From contig OU015499.1 of assembly GCA_907164885.2 (NCBI GenBank), positions 165,424,330 through 165,488,329 on the forward strand: 64,000 nucleotides of DNA, read 5' to 3'. Numbering within the stretch: the stretch's first letter is position 1; each line of letters starts with the position of its first letter. Shown here piece after piece: positions 3,067-63,150 of the stretch. Below the pieces are notes generated by a model. That model searched no databases. It was not told the DNA's origin and saw only the letters and a list, made by a program, of their open reading frames with translations. This stretch comes from Dolomedes plantarius (taxonomy: Eukaryota; Arthropoda; Arachnida; Araneae; Dolomedidae). A program made the translations under genes and the position numbers.

Positions 3067-3732
3067 TTTTAAAAAATAGGAATTTTTAAAAAGTTTTTAG
3101 CAAAATTTAACTCTTACGCCAGACGCACTGCACTCCCTCTAACTAAATATATTTTACGTTATATACTGCTGTGACATTTCCCTGTGTCATGTACAACATT
3201 TCCGAAAATCACTGAAATATATATCAAAGTATGCAGAAATACTTAGATTTATGCTTTGTTTTTAAATTATCTTTCTTTCATGTAGAGGTACCCGTAAAAG
3301 GATTTAATGAACACCTAGAGTTTAACTTTTATTTCAAAACATAGCCGTGGAATGTGCGACTTCAATTCCCAATATTGAGAAATTTGGAATGAATCAGAAG
3401 AAAAGGGATGGAGCATTTTGGGAAGTGCTGGCCAAAAATTATATTAGGTGACATCATTTTGCCATCTTATACATATTGAATATTCGGAGGGAATATACAT
3501 AGGGGATTCTAAAATGTAGTAAAAACTAATCCTCATTTAACATACAGAGCAAAAAATTTAAAATTTAAAACAGAGGTTGAAGGTGCATTAAAAATTCAAA
3601 TTCGATGTTTCAAATGTTCCGAAATACATCATTTTGACTGAATGAGTTGCAATTTCGGCTTTCCTGGCAGCGAACTCACATCACGCGGTACCTAAACCAG
3701 ATCCTACCCTCCAATTTTAGCAGTCAAAACAA

Positions 3733-3964
3733 GATTTCCCAGCATGCGTCAGCGACCCGGGAAGACGAAATCGTCCATTTCAATGGCCACAACTTACTTC
3801 ATCGGATGGCTCGCCCTGTTCGGCAGAACGCCTGTGCACAAGATAGCACAAGAAAAGAACGAAGAAAACTCCAAAGATGATAGCGTACAACATACTTTGA
3901 AGCGGCTCAATATCAGAGTGACGAAATCTTTGGAACACGGTGGTCTTTACAATGTTTTCATTGT
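3733..3964 (+). other. Perfectly conserved block between the two long-repeat copies; possible exon
   Basis: These 232 bases are identical to 62516-62747, whereas the roughly 90 bases just upstream differ at about six positions. A reading frame from an ATG at 3744 is open across the block (starts MRQRPGKTK, includes MATTYFIGWLALFG) and runs 99 codons in copy 1; the matching frame in copy 2 starts at 62389. A possible splice acceptor (TTTTAGCAG) lies just upstream. I do not recognise the peptide. Constraint, gene conversion or chance could each explain the identity, so coding is not claimed. Confidence 0.4.
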
Positions 3965-4119
3965 TGTTTTTATGGTTAACTGTTGGTTTATGGCTACCCG
4001 GTGCCTTCCGTTCGTTTATTTGTCATTGTTAAGTCATTGTTGACAGTTATCTTTGTTACCGAAAGCATTATGAATCCAATATGGCGGAAGTTCTTGAAAG
4101 GGAATACATCATCTAGAAG

Positions 4120-4370
4120 GACGTGAGGTAGCGTAGAGGCAGCACGTCAGCTTTCGGAGCTAAGGGTCCTCGATTCAAAAACCTCCGAGTCGAGGTCGGA
4201 TAAGTCCGTAGACAGGAGAGTTCCTCTACGAGTTGAGAGAGGATTCGACCCTCAGACGTCACCCTTTGGGGTGCTCGGTGAAAATGGAGTTGGCACCAGT
4301 CTAAACCGGAGCCGTACCTCTCAGCCCGATAGCCTATATAGACAGGGCCTAGAATGAATTCCGACCAGAG
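4120..4370 (+). mobile_element. tRNA-like SINE candidate (copy 1)
   Basis: The start reads like a tRNA-derived promoter region, with a box-A-like GAGGTAGCGTAGAGGC stretch and, about 40 bases later, a box-B-like TCGATTCAAAA. The paralogue at 62900 has TCGATTCGAA here, closer to the B-box consensus. The body after the tRNA-like head is unlike a tRNA, so this is a SINE and not a tRNA gene. It sits at the same place in both long-repeat copies. Family and exact 3' end are not certain. Confidence 0.5.
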
Positions 4371-4943
4371 AAACGACAACATATCATCTTGAAAAGAATA
4401 TTTGAACTCATAAAAATCAGAACGCGATTCAAACAATTCTCGTCTCTTTTAATGGTCTATAAGAGGATAATGGGCAGTTTTTACGACTCCAGGCAGCTGA
4501 GTTTTATAAGAAAGAACTTTCCTTCTATGGAAGTATCTGTAGGACCCATTATTTGGATCAAAATATCACTTGTGGCGACCGGCTACACCAGACTCCTTGC
4601 AACCCAATTTACGAAACTTTGACAAGCGTACGAGCCACATCCTTCAGCTCTGATGTAAAATTAGTTTTTCGCATCACGGTGCTACCAGCTCATTTTCTTG
4701 ACGTTTCATTCTTTGTTCTCGAGGAAGGTTCTCTATTAAATGTCATACGACCAATTGGTGTGTTTAATTGGTTGGATTTTCTGTTAAAATGTTGTGCTAT
4801 CTATTTTGAGCATTTTTTTTCGTTTTAAATGGATTCAGATGTTGCCAGCCTAACTTAAATAAGCAGACACTAAATATATAGATGGAAAAATAATATGCTT
4901 AAACAACTTTCGGTTTATTTTTTTAAATTCTATCTTTCCATAT

Positions 4944-4967
4944 CTACACACACACACACACACACAA
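4944..4967. repeat. (CA)n microsatellite
   Basis: A short CA run lies between the SINE block and the Tc1-like pseudogene. The matching run in copy 2 near 63707-63721 is shorter, as expected of replication slippage after duplication. Confidence 0.85.
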
Positions 4968-4968
4968 G

Positions 4969-5645
4969 GAACTTAGTCTCTTTGAAAGAGGTGTTATAGT
5001 TGGTTGTCACATTAGTGGCAAATGGCCGTAGAATTATCCCAGAGACGGGCAACTATTGGTACAGTTGACCAATGGTACAGTTGACCCAGTGAAGAAGTTG
5101 AAGACCACGGGAGTACGAACTGCACTCGTTGGTCGTCCCCGTAAGCTGACAGAACGGGATCGGCGTGTCCCGAAGCGTGAGGTTCGTAAGAACAGCCAGA
5201 AACCACTCCAAATCATCAACAGTGAGTTTCAACAGGCAGCAGGGGTACGGTGCACCCCAATACTTTGCGGAAAGAACTGCACGCACTCGATATCCCCGGA
5301 TGTGTTGACGCACACAAACCAAACATCACCCCATCCAACAAAGCCGGCAGACTCGCCAACGTCGCAACTGGACTGCGGACAACTGAAAAAATGTTTTAAG
5401 GAGCGACGAGTCACGCTACACGCTCTTCCGGTCGGATGGGCGTTCTTGGGTTTAGCGAATGCCAGGCGAACGTCTGTTACCCGAGTGCATCGTTCCAACT
5501 CTCGAGTTCGGTGGTGGTGGTGTACTTGTTTGGATCTCATTTCTCTCGACGCAAGACATCCTACGGTAAAAAGGGACGCCTCAAAATTTTGAAGAGTTGC
5601 TATTCAAATGTTTATAAAGGGAATAGGCGTCGCTCGTCATTGTAG
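4969..5645 (+). pseudogene. Tc1/mariner-superfamily transposase pseudogene (copy 1)
   Basis: Reading across frameshifts gives Tc1-like transposase landmarks in order. The N-terminal helix-turn-helix start is ELSLFERGVIVGCHISGK. The GRPRK hook between the two helix-turn-helix units follows, in GRPRKLTERDRRVPKREV. A linker resembling the family's TLRKELHALDI stretch comes next. The catalytic-domain signature SDESRYTLFRSDGR lies near 5400 and is followed by MPGERLLPECIVPTLEF and a GGGGVLVW stretch. There is an in-frame stop just after the first block and several frame changes, so the gene is dead. Known members make a cut-and-paste transposase of about 340 residues; this remnant covers roughly the N-terminal two thirds. 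No terminal inverted repeats were identified. Confidence 0.85.
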
Positions 5646-9790: not shown

Positions 9791-10400
9791 TTCATTGACA
9801 AAGTCAGAACTGAATGTAAACATTCCATAGAAACCTTAAGTGTTCCCAAATATACATTACTGATACTTGCATACTTCCAATAACAAAAAGTGAATAAAAG
9901 GCAAAAATCTTTCTAGAATGCCATCGATTATTATTGGTTCTGTGCAGTCGGCCAGAGATCAGTAAATACCTATATTTATTATTTTTGGTCACATAAGCAC
10001 ATATCACCAATTTATAAATGAATTTAAAAAATATAGAGATAGTAACTCAAACTATCAATGAATTTTGAGTAAAAGAATTTGCGCATTTTGTTTTTTAAAT
10101 CACAATTTGAACAGTCTTTACCTCCTCTCAAACGCTTCCGATAATTCAGATCGAAAATTCTCGGTCTCCTCCTTTAATGAAAATGGCAAACATAAAATTA
10201 CTGTATCAATAATGCTTCTAGTCCAATGAATGGACAAATTCTAATCAAATGGGAGGAAGTGGGCTAGCCAAGTAACTTCGCCAACTGAAAACTGGTATAC
10301 TCTGTGAACCTCATGACTTGGTAGCAGATAACAGTGATTCATCGCCAGTAACTAACTTACATTATTTGTTGGTTCAATGGCAACAGTATCTCTTAAGCGC
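9791..10400. other. No recognisable feature
   Basis: Spacer between the SINE and the left target duplication of the giant hAT element. No supported gene. Confidence 0.5.
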
Positions 10401-10408
10401 GTAGTATA
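10401..10408. repeat. Left 8-bp target-site duplication GTAGTATA of the giant hAT
   Basis: GTAGTATA lies immediately outside the left terminus and is repeated without mismatch at 24965-24972, immediately outside the right terminus. Eight-base duplications are diagnostic of hAT insertion. Confidence 0.9.
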
Positions 10409-10423
10409 TAGAGATGCCAAAAA

Positions 10424-10515
10424 CGAGTATTTTTCAGTAACAGGTACAACTGATCCAGATAGAAAAAAATACCTGTTACAAATACCTGTTACAAAATACC
10501 TGTTACTCTAACTTC
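10424..10515. repeat. Subterminal ACCTGTTAC / GTAACAGGT motif cluster, left end
   Basis: GTAACAGGTAC occurs at 10437-10447, and ACCTGTTAC occurs three times between about 10471 and 10505. The right end (24870-24940) holds the same motif in both orientations. In hAT elements such clustered subterminal motifs are typical transposase-binding sites; that role here is inference. Confidence 0.7.
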
Positions 10516-11830
10516 ATCTTCCAGTTTCATTCCCGTGGTCCCGCCATCCTCTCTCCCCTCCATACTCATTTACCGAGGTCTATATCCCGTACCTGTTAAC
10601 TCATCGCCTAGTGCCTAGTCTGCTATGAAATGGTGGGCGGAACAAAAATTTAATTACCCGTCTCTTAGCCAATTGCCAAAAAAGAAGCTTTGTGCCCTCG
10701 AAACTTCTGTCCCGTGAGAGAGAATATTTTTCTAGTCTGGTAAAATAATATCCGATCGCCGTTCTTGGTTAGATGGCGAAAAAGTTAACTTTTATTTTTA
10801 AACACGAACGCTCAATTTTGCTTATAAAGGGCTTCGAAATTTGGCAATTATCATTAGAAATTAACTACCAATCTTTTTATTACTTACTGTCATTATTTTT
10901 CATTGTTTTATTTATTGATAGTTATTAAGCTATTTTGTATTCATATAAAAATAGAAACTAATAGACCAATTCTGTGGTGATTGACCGTCTATCGTGAGCA
11001 ATTATTTTAAGATTAAAAATAAATAAAGAAAATAAACAAATAAGTAACGAAACCAAAAATTTAAGTGTAACAACTTTTTTGAAGATTAATGTAATATTTT
11101 TACAAATGACATGTACATTTTAACAATAATGCGTAATAATTAATGTAATGCGTTTATATTTAAATACCTATTCAGTTTTGTTATTTGATTTGGATACAAA
11201 AAGTTAGTATTAATATTAAGGTAGCTGTTAATACTGTTAATTTTTAGAACATTAAATAATATTCTATTTTTTTTTATTCAATAAAACTTTATTAAATAGA
11301 CTTTCTGTAATATTAATATAATTGTATTAGGTACAGTTTATTTCATATTTACATAAAGGGATAATTAAAATTTATGTGCAAACTACAATTGTTCAGTTGA
11401 TTATTTATAAAATATGTATACCTATTGTACAATAAATACATTTATACGAAGTTGTTTTTTCTAAAAAATATTTATGTTTTCCTAATGATAATCTTGTTTA
11501 ATATAAAATAAATTTTTTTTCATAAGGCGTTGTTTTTATTATCATCAACAATTTAATTCACAAAATCCTGACAAGTGAGCAGATACAATTTTTTCACCTG
11601 TCATAAAACACATAAATTATTACGAATAATATAATGAATAATCAGTGAATTTTATCAACAACATTAACCCAAAAATTTTATTTTATTTCAAAACCAATGA
11701 AAGTAAATATTTTTATAAAGGTATTTGGGTGTATTAGTATTTAATAATAGTCATGAATTAAAATGAAGAAGAAGGTAAGAATATGTCCAACGAAATTCAG
11801 ATCAACTGTCAATTTTATTGGAAAATTATG
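10516..11830. other. AT-rich left interior of the giant hAT
   Basis: About 1.3 kb of very AT-rich sequence with no recognisable reading frame or transposase fragment. It may be internal deletion-derivative filler or host DNA captured between the left end and the array. Confidence 0.5.
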
Positions 11831-12040
11831 GTTATAAACGAACGTGAAAATGTTTAGGTAAGCGAATATTTCCTGGTAAACAGTAAGTGGGGAAGGTCAC
11901 AAGACAAGTAGAAATACTTGTCTATTTGTTTTGTATGCCCCCGGCGACCCTTCCTACGTACCACGTAGAAATATAAATTATAAACGAGTGTGGAAATACT
12001 CGTTTAGGCAAGGGAGTATTTTCTGGTAACAGGTACGGAA
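11831..12040 (+). repeat. Proto-units at the left edge of the 66-bp array
   Basis: Two diverged copies of a TTATAAACGA...TTTAGG..AAG...GTATTT.CTGGTAA segment begin near 11833 and 11980, about 150 bp apart. The second runs straight into the first regular 66-bp unit. They look like older or edge units that escaped homogenisation. Confidence 0.55.
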
Positions 12041-15000
12041 AAATACTCGTACACTTATTTCGTCCCCTCCCAGGCAAGGGAGTATTTTCTGGTAACAGGT
12101 GCGGAAAAATACTCGTTTACTTATTTCGTCCCCGCCCAGGCAAGGGAGTATTTTCTGGTAACAGGTACGGAAAAATACTCGTTTACTTATTTAGTCCCCG
12201 CCCAGGCAAGGGAGTATTTTCTGGTAACAGGTACGGAAAAATACTCGTATACTTATTTCGCCCCTCCCAGGCAAGGGAGTATTTTCTGGTAACAGGTACG
12301 GAAAAATACTCGTTTACTTATTTCGTCCCCGCCCAGGCAAGGGAGTATTTTCTGGTAACAGGTACGAAAAAATACTCGTTTACTTATTTCGTCCCCGCCC
12401 AGGCAAGGGAGTATTTTCTGGTAACAGGTACGGAAAAATACTCGTTTACTTATTTCGTCCCCGCCCAGGCAAGGGAGTATTTTCTGGTAACAGGTACGGA
12501 AAAATACTCGTATACTTATTTCGTCCCCTCCCAGGCAAGGGAGTATTTTCTGGTAACAGGTACGGAAAAATACTCGTTTACTTATTTCGTCCCCGCCCAG
12601 GCAAGGGAGTATTTTCTGGTAACAGGTACGGAAAAATACTCGTATACTTATTTCGTCCCCTCCCAGGCAAGGGAGTATTTTCTGGTAACAGGTACGGAAA
12701 AATACTCGTTTACTTATTTCGTCCCCTCCCAGGCAAGGGAGTATTTTCTGGTAACAGGTACGGAAAAATACTCGTATACTTATTTCGTCCCCTCCCAGGC
12801 AAGGGAGTATTTTCTGGTAAGAGGTACGGAAAAATACTCGTTTACTTATTTCGTCCCCGCCCAGGCAAGGGAGTATTTTCTGGTAACAGGTACGGAAAAA
12901 TACTCGTTTACTTATTTCGTCCCCGCCCAGGCAAGGGAGTATTTTCTGGTAACAGGTACGGAAAAATACTCGTATACTTATTTCGTCCCCGCCCAGGCAA
13001 GGGAGTATTTTCTGGTAACAGGTACGGAAAAATACTCGTATACTTATTTCGTCCCCTCCCAGGCAAGGGAGTATTTTCTGGTAACAGGTACGGAAAAATA
13101 CTCGTTTACTTATTTCGTCCCCGCCCAGGCAAGGGAGTATTTTCTGGTAACAGGTACGGAAAAATACTCGTTTACTTATTTCGTCCCCGCCCAGGCAAGG
13201 GAGTATTTTCTGGTAACAGGTACGGAAAAATACTCGTTTACTTATTTCGTCCCCGCCCAGGCAAGGGAGTATTTTCTGGTAACAGGTACGGAAAAATACT
13301 CGTATGCTTATTTCGTCCCCTCCCAGGCAAGGGAGTATTTTCTGGTAACAGGTACGGAAAAATACTCGTATACTTATTTCGTCCCCTCCCAGGCAAGGGA
13401 GTATTTTCTGGTAACAGGTACGGAAAAATACTCGTTTACTTATTTCGTCCCCGCCCAGGCAAGGGAGTATTTTCTGGTAACAGGTACGAAAAAATACTCG
13501 TTTACTTATTTCGTCCCCGCCCAGGCAAGGGAGTATTTTCTGGTAACAGGTACGGAAAAATACTCGTTTACTTATTTCGTCCCCGCCCAGGCAAGGGAGT
13601 ATTTTCTGGTAACAGGTACGGAAAAATACTCGTATACTTATTTCGTCCCCTCCCAGGCAAGGGAGTATTTTCTGGTAACAGGTACGGAAAAATACTCGTT
13701 TACTTATTTCGACCCCGCCCAGGCAAGGGAGTATTTTCTGGTAACAGGTACGGAAAAATACTCGTTTACTTATTTCGTCCCCGCCCAGGCAAGGGAGTAT
13801 TTTCTGGTAACAGGTACGGAAAAATACTCGTTTACTTATTTCGTCCCCGCCCAGGCAAGGGAGTATTTTCTGGTAACAGGTACGGAAAAATACTCGTATA
13901 CTTATTTCGTCCCCTCCCAGGCAAGGGAGTATTTTCTGGTAACAGGTACGGAAAAATACTCGTTTACTTATTTCGTCCCCGCCCAGGCAAGGGAGTATTT
14001 TCTGGTAACAGGTACGGAAAAATACTCGTATACTTATTTCGTCCCCTCCCAGGCAAGGGAGTATTTTCTGGTAACAGGTACGGAAAAATACTCGTTTACT
14101 TATTTCGTCCCCGCCCAGGCAAGGGAGTATTTTCTGGTAACAGGTACGAAAAAATACTCGTTTACTTATTTCGTCCCCGCCCAGGCAAGGGAGTATTTTC
14201 TGGTAACAGGTACGGAAAAATACTCGTTTACTTATTTCGTCCCCGCCCAGGCAAGGGAGTATTTTCTGGTAGCAGGTACGGAAAAATACTCGTATACTTA
14301 TTTCGTCCCCTCCCAGGCAAGGGAGTATTTTCTGGTAACAGGTACGGAAAAATACTCGTATACTTATTTCGTCCCCTCCCAGGCAAGGGAGTATTTTCTG
14401 GTAACAGGTACGGAAAAATACTCGTTTACTTATTTCGACCCCGCCCAGGCAAGGGAGTATTTTCTGGTAACAGGTACGGAAAAATACTCGTATACTTATT
14501 TCGTCCCCTCCCAGGCAAGGGAGTATTTTCTGGTAACAGGTACGGAAAAATACTCGTTTACTTATTTCGTCCCCGCCCAGGCAAGGGAGTATTTTCTGGT
14601 AACAGGTACGGAAAAATACTCGTATACTTATTTCGTCCCCTCCCAGGCAAGGGAGTATTTTCTGGTAACAGGTACGGAAAAATACTCGTTTACTTATTTC
14701 GTCCCCGCCCAGGCAAGGGAGTATTTTCTGGTAACAGGTACGGAAAAATACTCGTATACTTATTTCGTCCCCTCCCAGGCAAGGGAGTATTTTCTGGTAA
14801 CAGGTACGGAAAAATACTCGTTTACTTATTTCGTCCCCGCCCAGGCAAGGGAGTATTTTCTGGTAACAGGTACGGAAAAATACTCGTTTACTTATTTCGT
14901 CCCCGCCCAGGCAAGGGAGTATTTTCTGGTAACAGGTACGGAAAAATACTCGTTTACTTATTTCGTCCCCGCCCAGGCAAGGGAGTATTTTCTGGTAACA

Positions 15001-18000
15001 GGTACGGAAAAATACTCGTATACTTATTTCGTCCCCTCCCAGGCAAGGGAGTATTTTCTGGTAACAGGTACGGAAAAATACTCGTATACTTATTTCGTCC
15101 CCTCCCAGGCAAGGGAGTATTTTCTGGTAACAGGTACGGAAAAATACTCGTATACTTATTTCGTCCCCTCCCAGGCAAGGGAGTATTTTCTGGTAACAGG
15201 TACGGAAAAATACTCGTTTACTTATTTCGTCCCCGCCCAGTCAAGGGAGTATTTTCTGGTAACAGGTACGGAAAAATACTCGTATACTTATTTCGTCCCC
15301 TCCCAGGCAAGGGAGTATTTTCTGGTAACAGGTACGGAAAAATACTCGTTTACTTATTTTGTCCCCGCCCAGGCAAGGGAGTATTTTCTGGTAACAGGTA
15401 CGGAAAAATACTCGTATACTTATTTCGTCCCCTCCCAGGCAAGGGAGTATTTTCTGGTAACAGGTACGGAAAAATACTCGTTTACTTATTTCGTCCCCGC
15501 CCAGGCCAGGGAGTATTTTCTGGTAACACGTACGGAAAAATACTCGTTTACTTATTTCGTCCCCGCCCAGGCAAGGGAGTATTTTCTGGTAACAAGTACG
15601 GAAAAATACTCGTTTACTTATTTCGTCCCCGCCCAGGCAAGGGAGTATTTTCTGGTAACAGGTACGGAAAAATACTCGTTTACTTATTTCGTCCCCGCCC
15701 AGGCAAGGGAGTATTTCCTGGTAACAGGTGCGGAAAAATACTCGTTTACTTATTTCGTCCCCGCCCAGGCAAGGGAGTATTTTCTGGTAACAGGTACGGA
15801 AAAATACTCGTTTACTTATTTAGTCCCCGCCCAGGCAAGGGAGTATTTTCTGGTAACAGGTACGGAAAAATACTCGTATACTTATTTCGCCCCTCCCAGG
15901 CAAGGGAGTATTTTCTGGTAACAGGTACGGAAAAATACTCGTTTACTTATTTCGTCCCCGCCCAGGCAAGGGAGTATTTTCTGGTAACAGGTACGAAAAA
16001 ATACTCGTTTACTTATTTCGTCCCCGCCCAGGCAAGGGAGTATTTTCTGGTAACAGGTACGGAAAAATACTCGTTTACTTATTTCGTCCCCGCCCAGGCA
16101 AGGGAGTATTTTCTGGTAACAGGTACGGAAAAATACTCGTATACTTATTTCGTCCCCTCCCAGGCAAGGGAGTATTTTCTGGTAACAGGTACGGAAAAAT
16201 ACTCGTTTACTTATTTCGTCCCCTCCCAGGCAAGGGAGTATTTTCTGGTAACAGGTACGGAAAAATACTCGTATACTTATTTCGTCCCCTCCCAGGCAAG
16301 GGAGTATTTTCTGGTAACAGGTACGGAAAAATACTCGTTTACTTATTTCGTCCCCGCCCAGGCAAGGGAGTATTTTCTGGTAACAGGTACGGAAAAATAC
16401 TCGTATACTTATTTCGTCCCCTCCCAGGCAAGGGAGTATTTTCTGGTAAGAGGTACGGAAAAATACTCGTTTACTTATTTCGTCCCCGCCCAGGCAAGGG
16501 AGTATTTTCTGGTAACAGGTACGGAAAAATACTCGTTTACTTATTTCGTCCCCGCCCAGGCAAGGGAGTATTTTCTGGTAACAGGTACGGAAAAATACTC
16601 GTATGCTTATTTCGTCCCCGCCCAGGCAAGGGAGTATTTTCTGGTAACAGGTACGGAAAAATACTCGTATACTTATTTCGTCCCCTCCCAGGCAAGGGAG
16701 TATTTTCTGGTAACAGGTACGGAAAAATACTCGTTTACTTATTTCGTCCCCGCCCAGGCAAGGGAGTATTTTCTGGTAACAGGTACGGAAAAATACTCGT
16801 TTACTTATTTCGTCCCCGCCCAGGCAAGGGAGTATTTTCTGGTAACAGGTACGGAAAAATACTCGTATACTTATTTCGTCCCCTCCCAGGCAAGGGAGTA
16901 TTTTCTGGTAACAGGTACGGAAAAATACTCGTTTACTTATTTCGTCCCCGCCCAGGCAAGGGAGTATTTTCTGGTAACAGGTACGAAAAAATACTCGTTT
17001 ACTTATTTCGTCCCCGCCCAGGCAAGGGAGTATTTTCTGGTAACAAGTACGGAAAAATACTCGTTTACTTATTTCGTCCCCGCCCAGGCAAGGGAGTATT
17101 TTCTGGTAACAGGTACGGAAAAATACTCGTATACTTATTTCGTCCCCTCCCAGGCAAGGGAGTATTTTCTGGTAACAGGTACGGAAAAATACTCGTTTAC
17201 TTATTTCGACCCCGCCCAGGCAAGGGAGTATTTTCTGGTAACAGGTACGGAAAAATACTCGTATACTTATTTCGTCCCCTCCCAGGCAAGGGAGTATTTT
17301 CTGGTAACAGGTACGGAAAAATACTCGTTTACTTATTTCGTCCCCGCCCAGGCAAGGGAGTATTTTCTGGTAACAGGTACGGAAAAATACTCGTATACTT
17401 ATTTCGTCCCCTCCCAGGCAAGGGAGTATTTTCTGGTAACAGGTACGGAAAAATACTCGTTTACTTATTTCGTCCCCGCCCAGGCAAGGGAGTATTTTCT
17501 GGTAACAGGTACGGAAAAATACTCGTATACTTATTTCGTCCCCTCCCAGGCAAGGGAGTATTTTCTGGTAACAGGTACGGAAAAATACTCGTTTACTTAT
17601 TTCGTCCCCGCCCAGGCAAGGGAGTATTTTCTGGTAACAGGTACGAAAAAATACTCGTTTACTTATTTCGTCCCCGCCCAGGCAAGGGAGTATTTTCTGG
17701 TAACAGGTACGGAAAAATACTCGTTTACTTATTTCGTCCCCGCCCAGGCAAGGGAGTATTTTCTGGTAACAGGTACGGAAAAATACTCGTATACTTATTT
17801 CGTCCCCTCCCAGGCAAGGGAGTATTTTCTGGTAACAGGTACGGAAAAATACTCGTTTACTTATTTCGACCCCGCCCAGGCAAGGGAGTATTTTCTGGTA
17901 ACAGGTACGGAAAAATACTCGTATACTTATTTCGTCCCCTCCCAGGCAAGGGAGTATTTTCTGGTAACAGGTACGGAAAAATACTCGTTTACTTATTTCG

Positions 18001-21000
18001 TCCCCGCCCAGGCAAGGGAGTATTTTCTGGTAACAGGTACGGAAAAATACTCGTATACTTATTTCGTCCCCTCCCAGGCAAGGGAGTATTTTCTGGTAAC
18101 AGGTACGGAAAAATACTCGTTTACTTATTTCGTCCCCGCCCAGGCAAGGGAGTATTTTCTGGTAACAGGTACGGAAAAATACTCGTATACTTATTTCGTC
18201 CCCTCCCAGGCAAGGGAGTATTTTCTGGTAACAGGTACGGAAAAATACTCGTTTACTTATTTCGTCCCCGCCCAGGCAAGGGAGTATTTTCTGGTAACAG
18301 GTACGAAAAAATACTCGTTTACTTATTTCGTCCCCGCCCAGGCAAGGGAGTATTTTCTGGTAACAGGTACGGAAAAATACTCGTTTACTTATTTCGTCCC
18401 CGCCCAGGCAAGGGAGTATTTTCTGGTAACAGGTACGGAAAAATACTCGTATACTTATTTCGTCCCCTCCCAGGCAAGGGAGTATTTTCTGGTAACAGGT
18501 ACGGAAAAATACTCGTTTACTTATTTCGTCCCCGCCCAGGCAAGGGAGTATTTTCTGGTAACAGGTACGGAAAAATACTCGTATACTTATTTCGTCCCCT
18601 CCCAGGCAAGGGAGTATTTTCTGGTAACAGGTACGGAAAAATACTCGTTTACTTATTTCGTCCCCGCCCAGGCAAGGGAGTATTTTCTGGTAACAGGTAC
18701 GGAAAAATACTCGTATACTTATTTCGTCCCCTCCCAGGCAAGGGAGTATTTTCTGGTAAGAGGTACGGAAAAATACTCGTTTACTTATTTCGTCCCCGCC
18801 CAGGCAAGGGAGTATTTTCTGGTAACAGGTACGGAAAAATACTCGTTTACTTATTTCGTCCCCGCCCAGGCAAGGGAGTATTTTCTGGTAACAGGTACGG
18901 AAAAATACTCGTATACTTATTTCGTCCCCGCCCAGGCAAGGGAGTATTTTCTGGTAACAGGTACGGAAAAATACTCGTATACTTATTTCGTCCCCTCCCA
19001 GGCAAGGGAGTATTTTCTGGTAACAGGTACGGAAAAATACTCGTTTACTTATTTCGTCCCCGCCCAGGCAAGGGAGTATTTTCTGGTAACAGGTACGGAA
19101 AAATACTCGTTTACTTATTTCGTCCCCGCCCGGGCAAGGGAGTATTTTCTGGTAACAGGTACGGAAAAATACTCGTTTACTTATTTCGTCCCCGCCCAGG
19201 CGAGGGAGTATTTTCTGGTAACAGGTACGGAAAAATACTCGTATGCTTATTTCGTCCCCTCCCAGGCAAGGGAGTATTTTCTGGAAACAGGTACGGAAAA
19301 ATACTCGTATACTTATTTCGTCCCCTCCCAGGCAAGGGAGTATTTTCTGGTAACAGGTACGGAAAAATACTCGTTTACTTATTTCGTCCCCGCCCAGGCA
19401 AGGGAGTATTTTCTGGTAACAGGTACGAAAAAATACTCGTTTACTTATTTCGTCCCCGCCCAGGCAAGGGAGTATTTTCTGGTAACAGGTACGGAAAAAT
19501 ACTCGTTTACTTATTTCGTCCCCGCCCAGGCAAGGGAGTATTTTCTGGTAACAGGTACGGAAAAATACTCGTATACTTATTTCGTCCCCTCCCAGGCAAG
19601 GGAGTATTTTCTGGTAACAGGTACGGAAAAATACTCGTTTACTTATTTCGACCCCGCCCAGGCAAGGGAGTATTTTCTGGTAACAGGTACGGAAAAATAC
19701 TCGTATACTTATTTCGTCCCCTCCCAGGCAAAGGAGTATTTTCTGGTAACAGGTACGGAAAAATACTCGTTTACTTATTTCGTCCCCGCCCAGGCAAGGG
19801 AGTATTTTCTGGTAACAGGTACGGAAAAATACTCGTATACTTATTTCGTCCCCTCCCAGGCAAGGGAGTATTTTCTGGTAACAGGTACGGAAAAATACTC
19901 GTTTACTTATTTCGTCCCCGCCCAGGCAAGGGAGTATTTTCTGGTAACAGGTACGGAAAAATACTCGTATACTTATTTCGTCCCCTCCCAGGCAAGGGAG
20001 TATTTTCTGGTAACAGGTACGGAAAAATACTCGTTTACTTATTTCGTCCCCGCCCAGGCAAGGGAGTATTTTCTGGTAACAGGTACGAAAAAATACTCGT
20101 TTACTTATTTCGTCCCCGCCCAGGCAAGGGAGTATTTTCTGGTAACAGGTACGGAAAAATACTCGTTTACTTATTTCGTCCCCGCCCAGGCAAGGGAGTA
20201 TTTTCTGGTAACAGGTACGGAAAAATACTCGTATACTTATTTCGTCCCCTCCCAGGCAAGGGAGTATTTTCTGGTAACAGGTACGGAAAAATACTCGTTT
20301 ACTTATTTCGACCCCGCCCAGGCAAGGGAGTATTTTCTGGTAACAGGTACGGAAAAATACTCGTATACTTATTTCGTCCCCTCCCAGGCAAGGGAGTATT
20401 TTCTGGTAACAGGTACAGAAAAATACTCGTTTACTTATTTCGTCCCCGCCCAGGCAAGGGAGTATTTTCTGGTAACAGGTACGGAAAAATACTCGTATAC
20501 TTATTTCGTCCCCTCCCAGGCAAGGGAGTATTTTCTGGTAACAGGTACGGAAAAATACTCGTTTACTTATTTCGTCCCCGCCCAGGCAAGGGAGTATTTT
20601 CTGGTAACAGGTACGGAAAAATACTCGTATACTTATTTCGTCCCCTCCCAGGCAAGGGAGTATTTTCTGGTAACAGGTACGGAAAAATACTCGTTTACTT
20701 ATTTCGTCCCCGCCCAGGCAAGGGAGTATTTTCTGGTAACAGGTACGAAAAAATACTCGTTTACTTATTTCGTCCCCGCCCAGGCAAGGGAGTATTTTCT
20801 GGTAACAGGTACGGAAAAATACTCGTTTACTTATTTCGTCCCCGCCCAGGCAAGGGAGTATTTTCTGGTAGCAGGTACGGAAAAATACTCGTATACTTAT
20901 TTCGTCCCCTCCCAGGCAAGGGAGTATTTTCTGGTAACAGGTACGGAAAAATACTCGTATACTTATTTCGTCCCCTCCCAGGCAAGGGAGTATTTTCTGG

Positions 21001-24000
21001 TAACAGGTACGGAAAAATACTCGTTTACTTATTTCGACCCCGCCCAGGCAAGGGAGTATTTTCTGGTAACAGGTACGGAAAAATACTCGTATACTTATTT
21101 CGTCCCCTCCCAGGCAAGGGAGTATTTTCTGGTAACAGGTACGGAAAAATACTCGTTTACTTATTTCGTCCCCGCCCAGGCAAGGGAGTATTTTCTGGTA
21201 ACAGGTACGGAAAAATACTCGTATACTTATTTCGTCCCCTCCCAGGCAAGGGAGTATTTTCTGGTAACAGGTACGGAAAAATACTCGTTTACTTATTTCG
21301 TCCCCGCCCAGGCAAGGGAGTATTTTCTGGTAACAGGTACGGAAAAATACTCGTATACTTATTTCGTCCCCTCCCAGGCAAGGGAGTATTTTCTGGTAAC
21401 AGGTACGGAAAAATACTCGTTTACTTATTTCGTCCCCGCCCAGGCAAGGGAGTATTTTCTGGTAACAGGTACGAAAAAATACTCGTTTACTTATTTCGTC
21501 CCCGCCCAGGCAAGGGAGTATTTTCTGGTAACAGGTACGGAAAAATACTCGTTTACTTATTTCGTCCCCGCCCAGGCAAGGGAGTATTTTCTGGTAACAG
21601 GTACGGAAAAATACTCGTATACTTATTTCGTCCCCTCCCAGGCAAGGGAGTATTTTCTGGTAACAGGTACGGAAAAATACTCGTATACTTATTTCGTCCC
21701 CTCCCAGGCAAGGGAGTATTTTCTGGTAACAGGTACGGAAAAATACTCGTATACTTATTTCGTCCCCTCCCAGGCAAGGGAGTATTTTCTGGTAACAGGT
21801 ACGGAAAAATACTCGTTTACTTATTTCGTCCCCGCCCAGGCAAGGGAGTATTTTCTGGTAACAGGTACGGAAAAATACTCGTATACTTATTTCGTCCCCT
21901 CCCAGGCAAGGGAGTATTTTCTGGTAACAGGTACGGAAAAATACTCGTTTACTTATTTTGTCCCCGCCCAGGCAAGGGAGTATTTTCTGGTAACAGGTAC
22001 GGAAAAATACTCGTATACTTATTTCGTCCCCTCCCAGGCAAGGGAGTATTTTCTGGTAACAGGTACGGAAAAATACTCGTTTACTTATTTCGTCCCCGCC
22101 CAGGCCAGGGAGTATTTTCTGGTAACACGTACGGAAAAATACTCGTTTACTTATTTCGTCCACGCCCAGGCAAGGGAGTATTTTCTGGTAACAAGTACGG
22201 AAAAATACTCGTTTACTTATTTCGTCCCCGCCCAGGCAAGGGAGTATTTTCTGGTAACAGGTACGGAAAAATACTCGTTTACTTATTTCGTCCCCGCCCA
22301 GGCAAGGGAGTATTTCCTGGTAACAGGTGCGGAAAAATACTCGTTTACTTATTTCGTCCCCGCCCAGGCAAGGGAGTATTTTCTGGTAACAGGTACGGAA
22401 AAATACTCGTTTACTTATTTAGTCCCCGCCCAGGCAAGGGAGTATTTTCTGGTAACAGGTACGGAAAAATACTCGTATACTTATTTCGCCCCTCCCAGGC
22501 AAGGGAGTATTTTCTGGTAACAGGTACGGAAAAATACTCGTTTACTTATTTCGTCCCCGCCCAGGCAAGGGAGTATTTTCTGGTAACAGGTACGAAAAAA
22601 TACTCGTTTACTTATTTCGTCCCCGCCCAGGCAAGGGAGTATTTTCTGGTAACAGGTACGGAAAAATACTCGTTTACTTATTTCGTCCCCGCCCAGGCAA
22701 GGGAGTATTTTCTGGTAACAGGTACGGAAAAATACTCGTTTACTTATTTCGTCCCCTCCCAGGCAAGGGAGTATTTTCTGGTAACAGGTACGGAAAAATA
22801 CTCGTTTACTTATTTCGTCCCCGCCCAGGCAAGGGAGTATTTTCTGGTAACAGGTACGGAAAAATACTCGTATACTTATTTCGTCCCCTCCCAGGCAAGG
22901 GAGTATTTTCTGGTAACAGGTACGGAAAAATACTCGTTTACTTATTTCGTCCCCGCCCAGGCAAGGGAGTATTTTCTGGTAACAGGTACGGAAAAATACT
23001 CGTATACTTATTTCGTCCCCTCCCAGGCAAGGGAGTATTTTCTGGTAAGAGGTACGGAAAAATACTCGTTTACTTATTTCGTCCCCGCCCAGGCAAGGGA
23101 GTATTTTCTGGTAACAGGTACGGAAAAATACTCGTTTACTTATTTCGTCCCCGCCCAGGCAAGGGAGTATTTTCTGGTAACAGGTACGGAAAAATACTCG
23201 TATACTTATTTCGTCCCCGCCCAGGCAAGGGAGTATTTTCTGGTAACAGGTACGGAAAAATACTCGTATACTTATTTCGTCCCCTCCCAGGCAAGGGAGT
23301 ATTTTCTGGTAACAGGTACGGAAAAATACTCGTTTACTTATTTCGTCCCCGCCCAGGCAAGGGAGTATTTTCTGGTAACAGGTACGGAAAAATACTCGTT
23401 TACTTATTTCGTCCCCTCCCAGGCAAGGGAGTATTTTCTGGTAACAGGTACGGAAAAATACTCGTTTACTTATTTCGTCCCCGCCCAGGCAAGGGAGTAT
23501 TTTCTGGTAACAGGTACGGAAAAATACTCGTATACTTATTTCGTCCCCTCCCAGGCAAGGGAGTATTTTCTGGTAACAGGTACGGAAAAATACTCGTTTA
23601 CTTATTTCGACCCCGCCCAGGCAAGGGAGTATTTTCTGGTAACAGGTACGGAAAAATACTCGTATACTTATTTCGTCCCCTCCCAGGCAAGGGAGTATTT
23701 TCTGGTAACAGGTACGGAAAAATACTCGTTTACTTATTTCGTCCCCGCCCAGGCAAGGGAGTATTTTCTGGTAACAGGTACGGAAAAATACTCGTATACT
23801 TATTTCGTCCCCTCCCAGGCAAGGGAGTATTTTCTGGTAACAGGTACGGAAAAATACTCGTTTACTTATTTCGTCCCCGCCCAGGCAAGGGAGTATTTTC
23901 TGGTAACAGGTACGGAAAAATACTCGTATACTTATTTCGTCCCCTCCCAGGCAAGGGAGTATTTTCTGGTAACAGGTACGGAAAAATACTCGTTTACTTA

Positions 24001-24804
24001 TTTCGTCCCCGCCCAGGCAAGGGAGTATTTTCTGGTAACAGGTACGAAAAAATACTCGTTTACTTATTTCGTCCCCGCCCAGGCAAGGGAGTATTTTCTG
24101 GTAACAGGTACGGAAAAATACTCGTTTACTTATTTCGTCCCCGCCCAGGCAAGGGAGTATTTTCTGGTAACAGGTACGGAAAAATACTCGTATACTTATT
24201 TCGTCCCCTCCCAGGCAAGGGAGTATTTTCTGGTAACAGGTACGGAAAAATACTCGTATACTTATTTCGTCCCCTCCCAGGCAAGGGAGTATTTTCTGGT
24301 AACAGGTACGGAAAAATACTCGTATACTTATTTCGTCCCCTCCCAGGCAAGGGAGTATTTTCTGGTAACAGGTACGGAAAAATACTCGTTTACTTATTTC
24401 GTCCCCGCCCAGGCAAGGGAGTATTTTCTGGTAACAGGTACGGAAAAATACTCGTATACTTATTTCGTCCCCTCCCAGGCAAGGGAGTATTTTCTGGTAA
24501 CAGGTACGGAAAAATACTCGTTTACTTATTTCGTCCCCGCCCAGGCAAGGGAGTATTTTCTGGTAACAGGTACGGAAAAATACTCGTTTACTTATTTCGT
24601 CCCCGCCCAGGCAAGGGAGTATTTTCTGGTAACAGGTACGGAAAAATACTCGTTTACTTATTTCGTCCCCGCCCAGGCAAGGGAGTATTTTCTGGTAACA
24701 GGTACGGAAAAATACTCGTTTACTTATTTCGTCCCCGCCCAGGCAAGGGAGTATTTTCTGGTAACAGGTACGGAAAAATACTCGTTTACTTATTTCGTCC
24801 CCGC
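12006..24804. repeat. 66-bp satellite array, about 194 units, with higher-order structure
   Basis: The unit starts AGGCAAGGGAGTATTTTCTGG and continues TAACAGGTACGGAAAAATAC then TCGTTTACTTATTTCGTCCC. It contains an inverted repeat, GAGTATTTT ... AAAATACTC, so each unit can fold. Two main versions alternate (CGTTTA...CCCCGCCC and CGTATA...CCCCTCCC). Rare variants recur at fixed spacings: CGACCCCG at 660 or 726 bp (10 or 11 units) and several markers at exactly 6,599 bp. Single-base deletions (CGCCCCTCCC) occur at 12261, 15890 and 22489. Because 66 is divisible by three, one minus-strand frame stays open for 2,093 codons, which reflects the period and not selection. Confidence 0.97.
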
Positions 24805-24964
24805 TCCCTGCCTGGCGGCCCTATTCTATTCGCCTGGCGGGAGTATTCTATCGTTTGACACGTACGCCGTACCTGTTACTTTTGAAAATGGGTAACAGGT
24901 CCAAAGTTCAGTTAACACATACCTGTTACAAAATAACAGGTCCAGTATTTCCGATCCATCCCTA
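24805..24964. other. Right end of the giant hAT
   Basis: After the last unit the sequence leaves the repeat through a GC-rich CCTGGCGG repeat pair and then shows ACCTGTTAC and GTAACAGGT motifs. It ends in CCATCCCTA, the inverted terminus. Confidence 0.75.
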
Positions 24965-24972
24965 GTAGTATA
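24965..24972. repeat. Right 8-bp target-site duplication GTAGTATA of the giant hAT
   Basis: Exact match to 10401-10408, directly abutting the right terminus. Confidence 0.9.
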
Positions 24973-25339
24973 GGTTATGGTGCGTATTGCATTTAACTCT
25001 TCATAATCATAGTAAATAAATATAAATATGTGTTGCCCTTGGTGAGAAACTTTCACAGGTTTTCGGATGAATGACGGTCTAAAATAATACTTCAGATGAT
25101 GCTGGTAAAATAAACAGCTATTCAAGTAAGTTTAATTTACAGGTTATTTTTTTCTGTATTGTATGACAGAACTGTTTTGTTAAGATGTTGAAAATGATAA
25201 TATGATTTCTACATTTTACTCTATTTTTTTCGTGAGTGAAGCTAAATTCTAATACAATTCTTATAACTTTTAAACTGTTAAAAACTGTATGTTCAGGCAT
25301 GGTGTGTGGTTTTCAGCATATAAGTAGATTAGGGTGAAA

Positions 25340-26330
25340 TGGGGTAATTGAGAACGCAAAATCATGTTGTTCCACTTTGAATCTAAATAAGTTTTTAACA
25401 AGTTGTTGTATGTAAATTTGCATCCATATTTTTGGTTATATTCTACATTTATAGTTTTATTTTTTTAAAAATCTGTTCAAAACTTTTTTTGCAGTAAATA
25501 TTTAAAGTTTTTGTGTTTTGCGTTCTCACTTTCTCCCGCACTTGGGGCAAGTGAGAACGCGGGTCCCAATAAATCATAGTTGCTTATAGCAAAATAGATA
25601 GGGCAAGGGAAAGAATGGATATTTTATGCTGAACACAAGGCTTTTTTTTTTTTTCCTTTTAACATTCGTTCATTATGGAGGTAGTTGTTTAAGTTACTGG
25701 TGTTAGTAACGTCTGAATAGTAACAAAAGAAGTATATTTGTATTATTTGTTTTAGAGTAACAAATGTATGTTAAAAGTTCAAAAAAAGTTTTTTTTTTTC
25801 CTTCGCATAGGCCTTATTGAATGTTGTAGGACCAAAAAGACATGGAAAATATTAGTTCACTTTCTGTTTTTCCAGGAACACTAATAAGTTATGATCTGGT
25901 ACAAAAGGCAATTCAGAAATAGTGAGAACAAAATTAGAAATTCAATAATTTCACACATAGTTTGTAATATCCACTCCACTGACATTCACTAACAGTTAGT
26001 CTAAACATGTTATTTTATTGCAATTCACTTCTTCAAACCTACAAAAAAAAAATCTAGTTTCAGTTGCATAATTTCCTATTTTGGAATGTTAAGGACTTAA
26101 AAACAATCATCAGCTGTTGAGGAAACATGGCAAAAGGTGGTTGGTTATGAAGCTTCTCCATCTAGAAAACATATGTTGGGAAGAAAAAAACTATTTATAT
26201 GGCTGTTATAACACAGAGGTATGTTTTTTTTTTCAGTATAAGGAGCTAGTTCTCACTTGTTTCAACCTTTGTGTTCTCACTTGCTCCGACACAAAATTTT
26301 TATGGGGCAAGTGAAAACACTGCAGTATTG
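25340..26330. repeat. Block rich in GTGAGAAC / GTTCTCAC motifs with two hairpins
   Basis: The motif occurs at about 25350, 25520, 25551, 25921, 26249, 26272 and 26310 in both orientations. Two hairpins are clear: a perfect 12-bp stem pairing 25520-25531 with 25549-25560, and a 17-bp stem with two mismatches pairing 26271-26287 with 26304-26320. This looks like the subterminal zone of an unidentified DNA transposon. No transposase frame or target duplication was established. Confidence 0.5.
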
Positions 26331-26426
26331 AAGTAATATTGCAAAAAAATGGTTTTTATATATTTTATCTGTATTTTTCGTTTCTTAATGAATAAAGGGG
26401 GTTTTTCAAAATAACTGTGCGGTTAA

Positions 26427-26471
26427 TTAGTTATGATTTTTTTTTTTTTTTTGTGGGGGGGGGGGGGGGGC
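26427..26471. repeat. Homopolymer tract poly-T then poly-G
   Basis: A run of T followed by a long run of G, ending in CTAGTACTCG. Length may be unreliable in the assembly. Confidence 0.9.
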
Positions 26472-29400
26472 TAGTACTCGAACTTGGGTACCTTAGTTAA
26501 AATTCAAGGGTTTAGTAGGTATAAAAATTCCAATTTATAATATTTTTTCGCTAAATAAAAACTATACATAACAGTAGAGCAAGAATTTTCCTACAAAGTT
26601 CACTTGAAATTATTTTTAAAAAGTTAAAATTTTTAGGGTTTTAAGCCCACTTTATACTAATACTTTTTGGTCGATTTTCGCGGGCTATTAAAATATACAC
26701 TCTACGATTTCAAAAGATTGCTAAAAGTTGCCAATTTGATAATTTTATTTACAATTTTTATCCTAAATTTATCAGTATATTATAAAAGTCTGAGATAACG
26801 TATTTAGAAACTTTGCTGGTTATGACTTATACAACTGATTTTGAACTGTTAATAATCATGATAAAAGATAAAATATACAAGGAAGAGTTCCATATACTGT
26901 GTTGTTCAGCTTAAAGGTGTCAAACTCCACCAAGTAGAGTTCTCCTTATGAGAAATTTAGAAAAATAACATTTAATACTGTTTTAAAACTTCTAATCTGA
27001 CAATCAACACTTTGTATAAAATCCAACAATAAGAACCTAATAAAGAACCGTAGAATATTTTAAGAAAGAAACACTGAATACAGCATTTAAATAATAAATC
27101 AGGTATAAATAATTAAAACAGTCTAAATACTTGCAAAGTGTCCAAAATGTATCAATCGGTTATAGAAAATGTAGGTAAGCAATATATTCAAAATACAATA
27201 CTATTATTTAAAAAAAAATCATAAAAATTCGAAAATAAGCATGTAAAAATATCAAGAAAAAGATAAATAAAAATACAAAAGTAGTGAAAAATTAAATGAA
27301 GTATATAAAGTAATGAATAGTTTGCAGCGAGGTAATTTCAACATGTAAAGAAGAATGAAAAAAACAATGACAATAGGAAAGTTTATAAAATTAACTAAAA
27401 TCATAAATTGGGAATCTTCATTTGAAAAATTAAATTTTAAAAACACTGACATACGAAAACTGATGTACTAAATGCATTCAGACCTGGATAAGACCTATAA
27501 ATGAAATTTGAATATCCAAGGGTAAGTTCTCATCTACTGGGTGGTATTCCATGAAAAAGTGGAAAATAAAAATTTTATAAAAGGAATTCAAAATTTTTTC
27601 ATTATCTGAAGCTAATCTCTAATTTCATTGGCTTAAAACATCTAAGTGATCATCATTAAAATTCAATTAATTGAAACTGAAAAAAACCTATGTGATATTT
27701 CTAAGATATAATCTCTGACCTTTGGTGAAATAAGAGCAGAGCTTAGCTGCTTCAGGTTTGCAGTGTATTGAACCATAAACCCAAATAATAAAAATATTTA
27801 TTATAAAGATTACAACCTAAGAGGAACAGAACATAAGCAAAGTATATACTTCTATAATCACCAAATTTGAGGCCATAAAAAATCCAGCACTTTTTGCAAC
27901 ACTCATGTGTTTTGTGTTTTTTTTAATTGTATTTCATGCTTAAAGAATTATAAAATTGCGAAAACATCTAAAGCTTTTTGAATTTAAGAAACTATCATTT
28001 ATGTGTATTAAGTTTTTTAAAATTAGAATAAAATCCATACACACTGTTAATTTCATGTGAACCTTATAGACAGGACTAATTAAATAATTATATATTCCAT
28101 ATAATTGATGAACTGGCACAAAACTTGGTGAGTTTTACAGCTTGGTACCATGAGCAGCAATCTGCAGAGTAGCCATTGCTTTCTCATATTATTCCTCTAT
28201 CAGGGAACTTTAATTTAAAATTGCATTTGAAATAATTTTTTAAAAATTATTTGTTTCTGTATTTATTGTTTTAAAATGTTCTTGACAAGATTTAGTAAAT
28301 AACTTTCATTCTTATCTTTTATTATAACAAAGATAATGGCAATAGTATTAAATGCAATACTCCTAAATAGTCATCATTTTAGATTCATTATACTATGCTT
28401 GTTTAAAGTTTTAAATGAATGTATTTCAAACAAGATGATTAAAAGTAATATTTAATTTAAAGTAATATTTCAAAGTAATATTCATTCTTATCTTTTATTA
28501 AAACAAAGGTAAAGGTATTAAATGAAATACTCTTAAATAATTATCATGTTAGGTACATCATTCATTATAATATGCTTGTTTACAGTTTTAAATGAATGTA
28601 TATCAAACTGAATGATTGAAAGTAATACTTGGTATTTGAAATTTAAGTTCATTTTAAAGAAATATTATATTATTTCACACATCAAAACTGTACACATTTA
28701 TTAGTATATAAAATGTTTCATTTTCTCTGCCCTATGTATTCTAAAGATTTCTTTGTTAGAAACATTTCAAAATTTAAAAAATCTGTATTCACTGATATTT
28801 CTGACTGCCTTGATATGATATTTTAAAAATTTTTAGTGTAAAAATTGTGCTTGGGTCAGTTTAGAACTAGATTTATATTATCTGCTCTTTTACCTGCATA
28901 TTCTTTTTTCTGAATAGATAATTTTAACAATGGTAAATTATCATTTGCCAGTGTGCAAATTTGTACAATTGTGCAAATTAATTGTTTTAATTAATTTTAA
29001 CCTCTAAAAGCTTCTTTATCTAATCCTCTAGTTATATGAATTGTTAATAATATTCTTAAAGATATAAAAGCATTTAAGAAGCCAGTAGCTGTCATTTATA
29101 GCAATTGTAGAATTTTTATAGGGTTTCCGAAAAAATAGGTTTTAATTCTTCTATTTATTTGACCAGCCTAAAGATATCTATATCTGCATCTTTTATAGAC
29201 TTCACCTGGTCATTATTCTGAGTCAATTTTTATATCTGTCAAGATAATTTCTAGTACCGATGCATGTTCCTTATATTCATTCTATTGAATCATATCAAAT
29301 TAACTTGTCTAGCTTTATACAGTATATGTTGAAAACAATGCACCTCAAACATTTCTTTCCAGTTACTTGTTCGTTAATACTCGTAATTAAATATCCTTTT

Positions 29401-33699: not shown

Positions 33700-35045
33700 T
33701 TTGTATGATTTTTAATCAGAATTTCTTTAGTTTATATATATTATTTTTGCTTAATATATATTTATACATATATTTATATATACATATATATATATACATA
33801 TACATATACATATATATAATACATATATATATATATATATTTAACAATATATAATATATGTACATTAAATTGAAATACACATGCAAAAATTTTTTGCACG
33901 TGAATAATTTGTATGATATTTTAATCTGATTTTCTTTATATATTTTATTTTTGCTTAATATATTTATACATAGCCTATTATACATATATATAGCATAAGA
34001 TATAATATATGTACATTAAATTGAAATACACATGCAAAATTTTTTGCACGTGAATAATTTGCATGATATTTTAATCTGATTTTCTTTATATATTTTATTT
34101 TTGCTTAATATATTTATACATAGCCTATTTATACATATATATAGCATAAGATATAATATATGTACATTAAATTGAAATACACATGCAAAAATTTTTTGCA
34201 TGTGAATAATTTGCATGATATTTTAATCTGATTTTCTTTATATATTTTATTTTTGCTTAATATATTTATACATAGCCTATTTATACATATATATAGCATA
34301 ATATATAATATATGTACATTAAATTGAAATACACGTGCAAAAATTTTTTGCACGTGAATAATTTGCATGATATTTTAATCTGATTTTCTTTATATATTTT
34401 ATTTTTGCTTAATATATTTATACATAGCCTATTTATACATATATATAGCATAAGATATAATATATGTATATTAAATTGAAATACACGTGCAAAAATTTTT
34501 TGCACGTGAATAATTTGCATGATAGTTTAATCTGATTTTCTTTATATATTTTATTTTTGCTTAATATATTTATACATATATATAGCATAAGATATAATAT
34601 ATGTACATTAAATTGAAATACACATGCAAAAATTTTTTGCACGTGAATAATTTGCATGATATTTTACTCTGATTTTCCTTATATATTTTATTTTTGCTTA
34701 ATATATTTATACATAGCCTATTTATACATATATATAGCATAATATATAATATATGTACATTAAATTGAAATACACGTGCAAAAATTTTTTGCACGTGAAT
34801 AATTTGCATGATATTTTAATCTGATTTTCTTTATATATTGTATTTTTGCTTAATATATTTATACTTAGCCTATTTATACATATATATAGCATAAGATATA
34901 ATATATGTACATTAAATTGAAATACACATGCAAAAATTATTTGCACGTGAATAATTTGCATGATATTTTAATCTGATTTTATTTATATATTTTATTTTTG
35001 TTTAATATATTTATACATATATATAGCATAATACATGATTATATA
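33700..35045. repeat. 152-bp AT-rich satellite, about eight units
   Basis: The unit includes TTAAATTGAAATACAC, then a palindrome centred on the A/T run, then GAATAATTTGCATGATATTT. One unit near 34570 lacks 15 bp. In the best unit, 34332-34356, the palindrome is perfect: CACGTGC, five A, T, five T, GCACGTG. The first unit (33720-33870) is diverged and expanded in TA steps. Confidence 0.9.
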
Positions 35046-43187: not shown

Positions 43188-43600
43188 CACACATCATCGC
43201 ATACACATGGGAGAGAAACCTTTCGCCTGCGCTGTGTGTGAGGAAAGATATTCTCAGCAGTGTCATTTAACAGCACATCAAAGTACCCACACATGAGAGA
43301 AACCTTTCGCATGCACTGATTGTAAAAAAAGATTTTCATTGCAGGGGAATTTCAAAACGCATCTCCTTATGCATGGAGGAAAGTCTTTTGGTCCGCATGA
43401 TATGTGAGAAACGGCTTTCTGAACTCGGATTTTTTAAAATACATGTTCGTACCTACACAGAAATCTTTCTTCCTCTGTGTGCGAGAGATTTTCCTTGCAG
43501 AGTTCCTTAAAAACGCATCTCCGTACCCTTACAGAAGAGAACCTTTCGATTGCTTTATGTGTGACAAAAGATTTTCCGGAGAGGGTAATTTAAAATGAAA
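43172..43600 (+). pseudogene. Decayed extra fingers downstream of the zinc-finger CDS
   Basis: Shifting frame after 43172 continues finger 17 (THHRIHMGEKPFACAVC) and then FACTDCKKRFSLQGNFKTH and related pieces, interrupted by TGA stops near 43297 and 43405 and by further frame changes. The ancestral protein therefore had at least three or four more fingers. A possible polyadenylation signal AATAAA lies at 43679-43684. Confidence 0.75.
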
Positions 43601-62899: not shown

Positions 62900-63150
62900 G
62901 GACCTGAGGTAGCGTAGAGGCAGCACGTCAGCTTTCGGAGCTAAGGGTCCTCGATTCGAAAAACCTCCGAGTCTAGGTCGGATAAGTCCGTAGACAGGAG
63001 AGTCCCTCTACCACCCTCAGACGTCGCCCTTTGGGGGGCTCGGTGAAAATGGAGTTGGCACCAGTCTAAACCTGAGCCGCACCTCTCAGCCCGATAGCCT
63101 ATATAGACAGGGCCTAGAATGAATTCCGACCACAGAAACAACAACATATC
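62900..63150 (+). mobile_element. tRNA-like SINE candidate (copy 2)
   Basis: Same head and body as the copy at 4120, with a better B-box-like TCGATTCGAA at 62951. It lacks about 28 bases near 63010 that copy 1 has. Confidence 0.5.

Follow-up and report, generated by a model that had tools for sequence, protein, structure and literature searches.

How does a long tandem array come to occupy a DNA transposon, by travelling with the element or by growing after the element has inserted? The question is raised by a 64,000-nucleotide stretch of the Dolomedes plantarius genome (contig OU015499.1, here C9, positions C9:165424330-165488329; 'the window'), in which a single insertion of 14,556 bp, at 10409-24964, consists for 12,799 bp of tandem 66-bp units. 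Very probably, a young insertion of a hAT element had its short array expanded in place, partly via duplication of blocks of about 3 kb, and the outcome is an emerging satellite. Satellite array origins are usually inferred from old, homogenised arrays. Here one genome has the pre-insertion site, sister copies with 1-9 units, the seed units A and B, the expanded array and bounds on its timing, and the step from transposon to satellite is open to testing via alleles of one insertion.

The array and its largest internal duplication lie as follows.

12006-24804, plus strand: tandem 66-bp array (Tandem Repeats Finder: period 66, 194.0 copies, 97% matches).
13325-16557, plus strand: 3,233-bp block, units 21-69, duplicated at 19924-23156.
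19924-23156, plus strand: second copy of the block, units 121-169, 99.75% identical to the first (8 mismatches).

Direct splitting also gives 194 units (190 of 66 bp, three of 65 and one of 67), with a mean pairwise identity of 97.7% among the 190. There are 26 variants, and two main types, A with 73 units and B with 61, together make up 134 of the 194; besides the differences between A and B, the array has 20 distinct substitutions. When the block stretch is compared at other lags, median identity is 97.6%, and the best block score, 70.7, far exceeds the maximum of 17.0 in 200 shuffled unit orders. Alternation between A and B is likewise beyond chance (115 of 189 steps; mean 89.4 and maximum 111 in shuffles). 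Long, homogeneous and containing higher-order blocks, the array has the structure of satellite DNA. That an assembler inflated a short array is extremely improbable: though the array is known from one assembly, its variants are ordered, its nested blocks have private differences, no N occurs in the window, and both flanks run on as they do in an empty duplicate considered below. The array shows no CpG depletion (observed/expected 1.09), unlike the 1-kb flanks (0.72 left, 0.57 right).

The bounds are those of one clean insertion.

10401-10408, unstranded: left target site duplication GTAGTATA, read from the sequence and present as a single copy in the empty site.
24965-24972, unstranded: right target site duplication GTAGTATA, read from the sequence.
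10409-10416, plus strand: left terminal inverted repeat TAGAGATG; the first 8 bases are identical in 16 printed sister copies.
24957-24964, minus strand: right terminal inverted repeat, which reads TAGGGATG in this orientation; the last 8 bases are identical in 16 printed copies.

The plus strand of the window has two occurrences of GTAGTATA, both being copies of the target site duplication, and its reverse complement has none; for each of the end motifs, TAGRGATG and CATCYCTA, there are two occurrences. The element ends, TAGAGATG...CATCCCTA, pair at 7 of 8 bases, the contiguous terminal repeat being short, about 8 bp. Terminal inverted repeats of hAT elements start with the motif YARNG, and the ends here begin TAGAG and TAGGG. 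Matching inverted ends of this type, a perfect 8-bp duplication and about 194 tandem 66-bp units had all been described in an earlier sequence-only reading, and on each of these points the present analysis agrees with it.

The site before insertion is preserved. About 86 kb upstream, at C9:165348680-165349700 (L079), the two flanks are joined via one GTAGTATA, an exact empty site that matches the window flanks at 1012 of 1021 bases, with no gap and no excision footprint. Two more distant duplicates (93%) are likewise empty, the site there reading GTAGTTTA. With several duplicates empty, the simplest view is that absence of the element came first. On the right, the nearest duplicate matches 4 kb of flank at 98% identity, and it begins at the first base past the target site duplication. 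The flanks (10001-10400 and 24973-28972) are part of an extensive group of duplicated segments at C9:151-167 Mb; all 43 left-flank and 129 right-flank matches are on C9, with identities of 75-99% once the window's own match is set aside. From the window to the contig end is about 4 Mb, and the window's last 3.5 kb or so (60451-64000) repeats 1-1644 and 3069-5246 at 92-97% identity, probably through a duplication like that of the flanks.

The element is also one of many. In the window's own genome (2.78 Gb, 390 contigs) copies were counted by end, with the best 40 of 352 left-end and the best 40 of 272 right-end candidates scored and the window included. For the left end, 40 places match over 257-292 of 292 bases, together with five short rows; for the right end, 40 places match across the whole length at 97-100% identity. 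Twenty-eight loci were retrieved (L051-L078), of which 18 have both ends in order, while ten (L065-L068, L071, L073, L074, L076-L078) are incomplete or rearranged and were left out of the test for target site duplications. A perfect 8-bp duplication, different every time, flanks 17 of the 18 complete sister copies; the remaining one, the rearranged L061, matches at 2 of 8 positions. Dispersal to many sites is thus evident from the 40 places per end, the differing duplications and the empty site. The sequence-only reading had asked for a genome search with the terminal sequences, for the empty site and for a comparison of copies by unit number, and had held that ends found just once would count against it; both ends are multi-copy, L079 joins the flanks at one GTAGTATA, and sisters have 1-9 units (22 and 19 in rearranged copies) versus 194 in the window.

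The family is enriched on C9, which has 22 of the best-scoring 40 left ends and 25 of the best-scoring 40 right ends versus 2.4 expected from its length; this suggests local hopping or chromosome-specific retention. At C9:93371427-93371734 a full left end is preceded by four tandem 77-bp copies of the left tip, terminal repeat included.

What the sisters carry in place of the long array bears directly on the question. The array position is the same in them, with 1-9 units at 29 right-end loci (window excluded), unit counts in sister loci being numbers of BLAST pieces and the right-end loci L022-L050 overlapping in part, as the same elements, with the copies L051-L078. Within L051-L070 the count is 1-7, save for the rearranged L059 (22) and L067 (19). 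Complete sisters are 1.68-2.94 kb long, with the exception of L059 at 5.44 kb. The common sister array reads B, A, A, (A...) and then a 64-bp end unit; at the array start, the 17 copies that were split have exact B in nine and B with one change in two. A and B being both the units of the common short array and the two major types in the window, the long array is made of ordinary family units.

Two sisters depart from this pattern. L059 (C9:83908969-83915405), which has a perfect target site duplication, carries its 22 units in a tandem series of eight 415/481-bp composites, each combining spacer, pre-array stretch and 66-bp units, and is a second expansion in a different register. L067 (C9:79852000-79858000) has its 19 units, of a 73-bp variant, in a pair of arrays inverted relative to each other (11.9 and 7.2 copies); it looks like two elements head to head, and the 73-bp form is possibly an older unit.

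Is the long array present elsewhere? A 24-base unit core has 460 exact genome occurrences (control 0), of which 165 are in the window. No cluster of more than 7 cores occurs among the 100 places listed, and 272 of the other 360 cores lie in retrieved loci. The A-then-B junction, which is rare in sister arrays because B stands first there, occurs 44 times in the 2.78 Gb: 43 times in the window element and once in a 4-unit copy on C9. The junction test is blind to long all-A arrays elsewhere, for which the 88 cores outside the places inspected set a bound. With 165 of 460 cores in this one window, the picture of an established satellite, numerous in the genome and forming long arrays at more than one locus, was not found; nor, with 43 of 44 junctions here, was the same long array seen at more than one insertion, as mobile cargo would have it.

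It is accordingly very unlikely that the array was a mobile satellite, already expanded in a donor and arriving near its full length. Short arrays do travel with the family, and L059, for all its 5.4 kb and 22 units, sits between perfect duplications; but the mixed A/B array is nowhere else in the assembly, the junction outside the window being in a copy with four units, and each of the five closest sisters has just 4 units. Compared over single-copy parts, these five are 0.6-1.0% divergent from the window copy, which has 5 substitutions of its own among 1,489 bases. (The tree omits L061, and L063 is included but unused, since an insertion close to the array and the way the copy was cut explain at least part of its 204 differences.)

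Timing also speaks against arrival at full length. Flank divergence from the empty duplicate is 0.88% over 1,021 bp and about 2% over 4 kb, versus 0.25% between the internal blocks. The last large duplication, of about 3.2 kb, therefore seems to postdate the upper bound on insertion, unless gene conversion reset the clock. The sequence-only reading had left open either mobile satellite cargo or runaway expansion after insertion; the few-unit sisters and the concentration of junctions here favour the latter, and of the former what survives is a short seed array. Its further suggestion, that of satellite birth from a DNA transposon, is supported and appears likely, with seed, sisters and empty site in one genome.

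The favoured history, growth in place, would run as follows. Members of the family have, at a constant position between what is left of the 3′ part of their transposase gene and the right end, a short array of a 66-bp unit related to the subterminal sequence. An ordinary non-autonomous hAT element of about 2 kb, presumably with few units at the time, inserted here and made the 8-bp duplication, an event documented by that duplication, the empty site and the sisters. Its short array would then have grown in place to 194 units by steps mixing A and B and by duplication of blocks, about 10 to about 50 units in size, whose copies are observed. Unequal exchange, or replication or repair slippage, acting on an already tandem array could account for such steps, and the product would be an emerging satellite rather than cargo moved at full size.

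Several points weigh against growth in place. On the assumption that the core list is in contig order, 88 of the 460 cores are outside inspected places, and a donor with a long array, since lost or unassembled, may have existed. A direct source copy was not found: the spacer repeat of about 250 bp is single in the window copy and double in the five closest sisters, and the window's last unit is one site off from the end unit of those five. The arrays of L056, L058 and L061-L064 start without B. Gene conversion within the array could give the blocks a falsely young age, flank divergence bounds the age of insertion from above only, and array length is known from one assembly.

As to what kind of element this is, the parts outside the array are informative.

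10409-10600, plus strand: left subterminal region; TAACAGG/CCTGTTA occurs here 5 times, at 10438, 10472, 10485, 10499 and 10592.
10616-10792, plus strand: remnant of the hAT transposase C-terminal dimerisation domain (Pfam PF05699, E=2.1e-7, 31.1 bits vs a cut-off of 21.4).
10811-11830, plus strand: AT-rich spacer, 21% GC, with one copy of the stretch of about 250 bp at 11404-11658.
11831-12005, plus strand: pre-array stretch, in which 11832-11883 aligns with the array entry (11978-12032) as its diverged copy.
24805-24964, plus strand: right subterminal region; CCTGTTA/TAACAGG occurs here 4 times.

The subterminal motif occurs 5 times in the left 300 bp and 4 times in the right 160 bp, and twice across the 49 kb outside the element. 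The PF05699 (Dimer_Tnp_hAT) match is interrupted by three in-frame stops, the first at the match edge; it is the only domain found by Pfam in the left 1.6 kb (six frames, stops read as X, E<=0.1), and with no catalytic core in that stretch the window copy is taken to be non-autonomous. Assignment to hAT, which the sequence-only reading had also made, is supported by sequence evidence of four kinds: the 8-bp duplications, the ends, the dispersed copies and the transposase remnant. The element is better called a Ds-like deletion derivative than a miniature inverted-repeat transposable element, a label reserved for noncoding elements of a few hundred bp and rejected here given sisters of 1.68-5.44 kb and a coding remnant in the window copy. 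The pre-array stretch adjoins the array in sister copies too, at 95-100% identity (80-83% in L067). The spacer stretch is present in 1-4 tandem copies among elements, 2-4 in many sisters.

Where did the unit come from? Its consensus includes GTAACAGGTAC and, read on the minus strand, a 15-bp match to the left end, AAACGAGTATTTTTC; the similarity score of the unit to the left end is reached by 0 of 500 shuffles, and that to the right end by 2 of 500. Having both the left-end segment and the subterminal motif, the 66-bp unit probably arose through duplication of a subterminal module, as judged from these resemblances.

In a variant compatible with growth in place, the driver would be the repeated subterminal motif, as a target of selection or of the transposase, the unit supplying extra putative transposase binding sites or transposase breaks fuelling expansion by repair. 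The unit does have the motif of both subterminal regions as well as the 15 bp of left end, and the family shows other tandem growth (spacer repeat, 415/481-bp composite, 73-bp arrays, 77-bp left-end repeat); for Galileo and Tetris, too, additional binding sites have been discussed (PMC4079207). However, mutations in the motif are not rarer: it takes up 11 of the 66 positions and has 6 of the 20 distinct events, where 3.3 are expected by length. Selection on the motif was thus not seen, and a motif no better conserved than its surroundings in the unit is evidence against strong selection for binding. Such a driver is unlikely. A more specific version, in which the array would be an amplified putative transposase docking sequence, the family would time and again produce tandem copies of its subterminal module resembling a transposase binding site, breaks at hAT ends (through cutting and repair) would drive the growth, and the 194-unit copy would act both as transposase sink and as the starting point for a new satellite confined to one chromosome, is distinctly unlikely.

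Two further candidates were set aside. Open frames through the array reach 3,430 amino acids, yet with a unit length divisible by 3, and three of its six frames open, such frames are expected and are not taken for genes. A strong hairpin in the unit as driver was rejected, folding being no better than in shuffles (z -0.64 and -1.03). For the two end regions the values are somewhat stronger (z -1.83 left, -2.41 right), the source being the inverted motif copies.

Among known systems, maize Ac/Ds, also hAT, has an 8-bp target site duplication, multiple short subterminal repeats and internally deleted defective derivatives (PMC3260210, in the sections available). The Ac end, C/TAGGGATGAAA, has its first 8 bases, TAGGGATG, in common with the right end here, but the repeated motif is AAACGG in Ac/Ds and GTAACAGG here, and those sections describe no array of satellite size, as against the 194 units here (PMC3260210). 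Tetris/TIR-220 of Drosophila virilis has tandem repeats within the transposon, of suggested terminal-domain origin, and satellite-like arrays of up to 66 copies of about 220 bp. Tetris, however, is a foldback element with the repeats within long terminal inverted repeats and its classification left open, whereas here the array is internal and the element hAT; strong pericentromeric heterochromatin signals are reported for Tetris and, in the part of the paper available, no empty site is described for a long array (PMC4079207). The Atlantic cod elements gadMor-hAT-1784 and -8043 are non-autonomous, hAT-derived and carry 167-169-bp tandem repeats, but these form terminal inverted repeats of about 600 bp in insertions with means of 1.3-5.8 kb and are associated with inversion breakpoints (PMC12368964, in part), in contrast to the one internal 12.8-kb array of the window element. 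For the MITE-borne satellites miDNA4 and Xstir of Xenopus, treated in a review, a satellite unit was likewise born inside a DNA transposon, although the portion available lists miDNA4 under Tc1-Mariner and Xstir without superfamily, both differing from the present element (PMC9659126). On the parts of these sources at hand, the kind is already known from Tetris and the cod hAT derivatives, and the present case is a larger and unusually complete record, in a hAT element with a verified empty site. No paper on this hAT family was found in one open-access library, which was not queried by family sequence or organism.

Other searches were also negative within their scope. The exact unit core and left end had 0 matches in viral contigs, as had the unit core in a general genome contig collection, and blastn of 24700-24964 (the right end and about 1.6 units) against phage records gave no match. 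Protein searches returned nothing at E<=0.01 from 7,995 candidates for a translated piece of the array, and nothing from 14 candidates for the transposase remnant. A scan of the window with Rfam, at gathering cut-offs, gave no hit.

Elsewhere in the window, 41732-43598 is a C2H2 zinc-finger gene with many 84-bp finger repeats. On the minus strand, 45603-45812 is a remnant of a DDE_1 transposase domain (E=5.7e-14), which we take to be pogo/Tigger-like. Two other tandem arrays are present, one at 33810-35031 (period 152 bp, 8 copies) and the other at 48690-49555 (period 34 bp, 25 copies).

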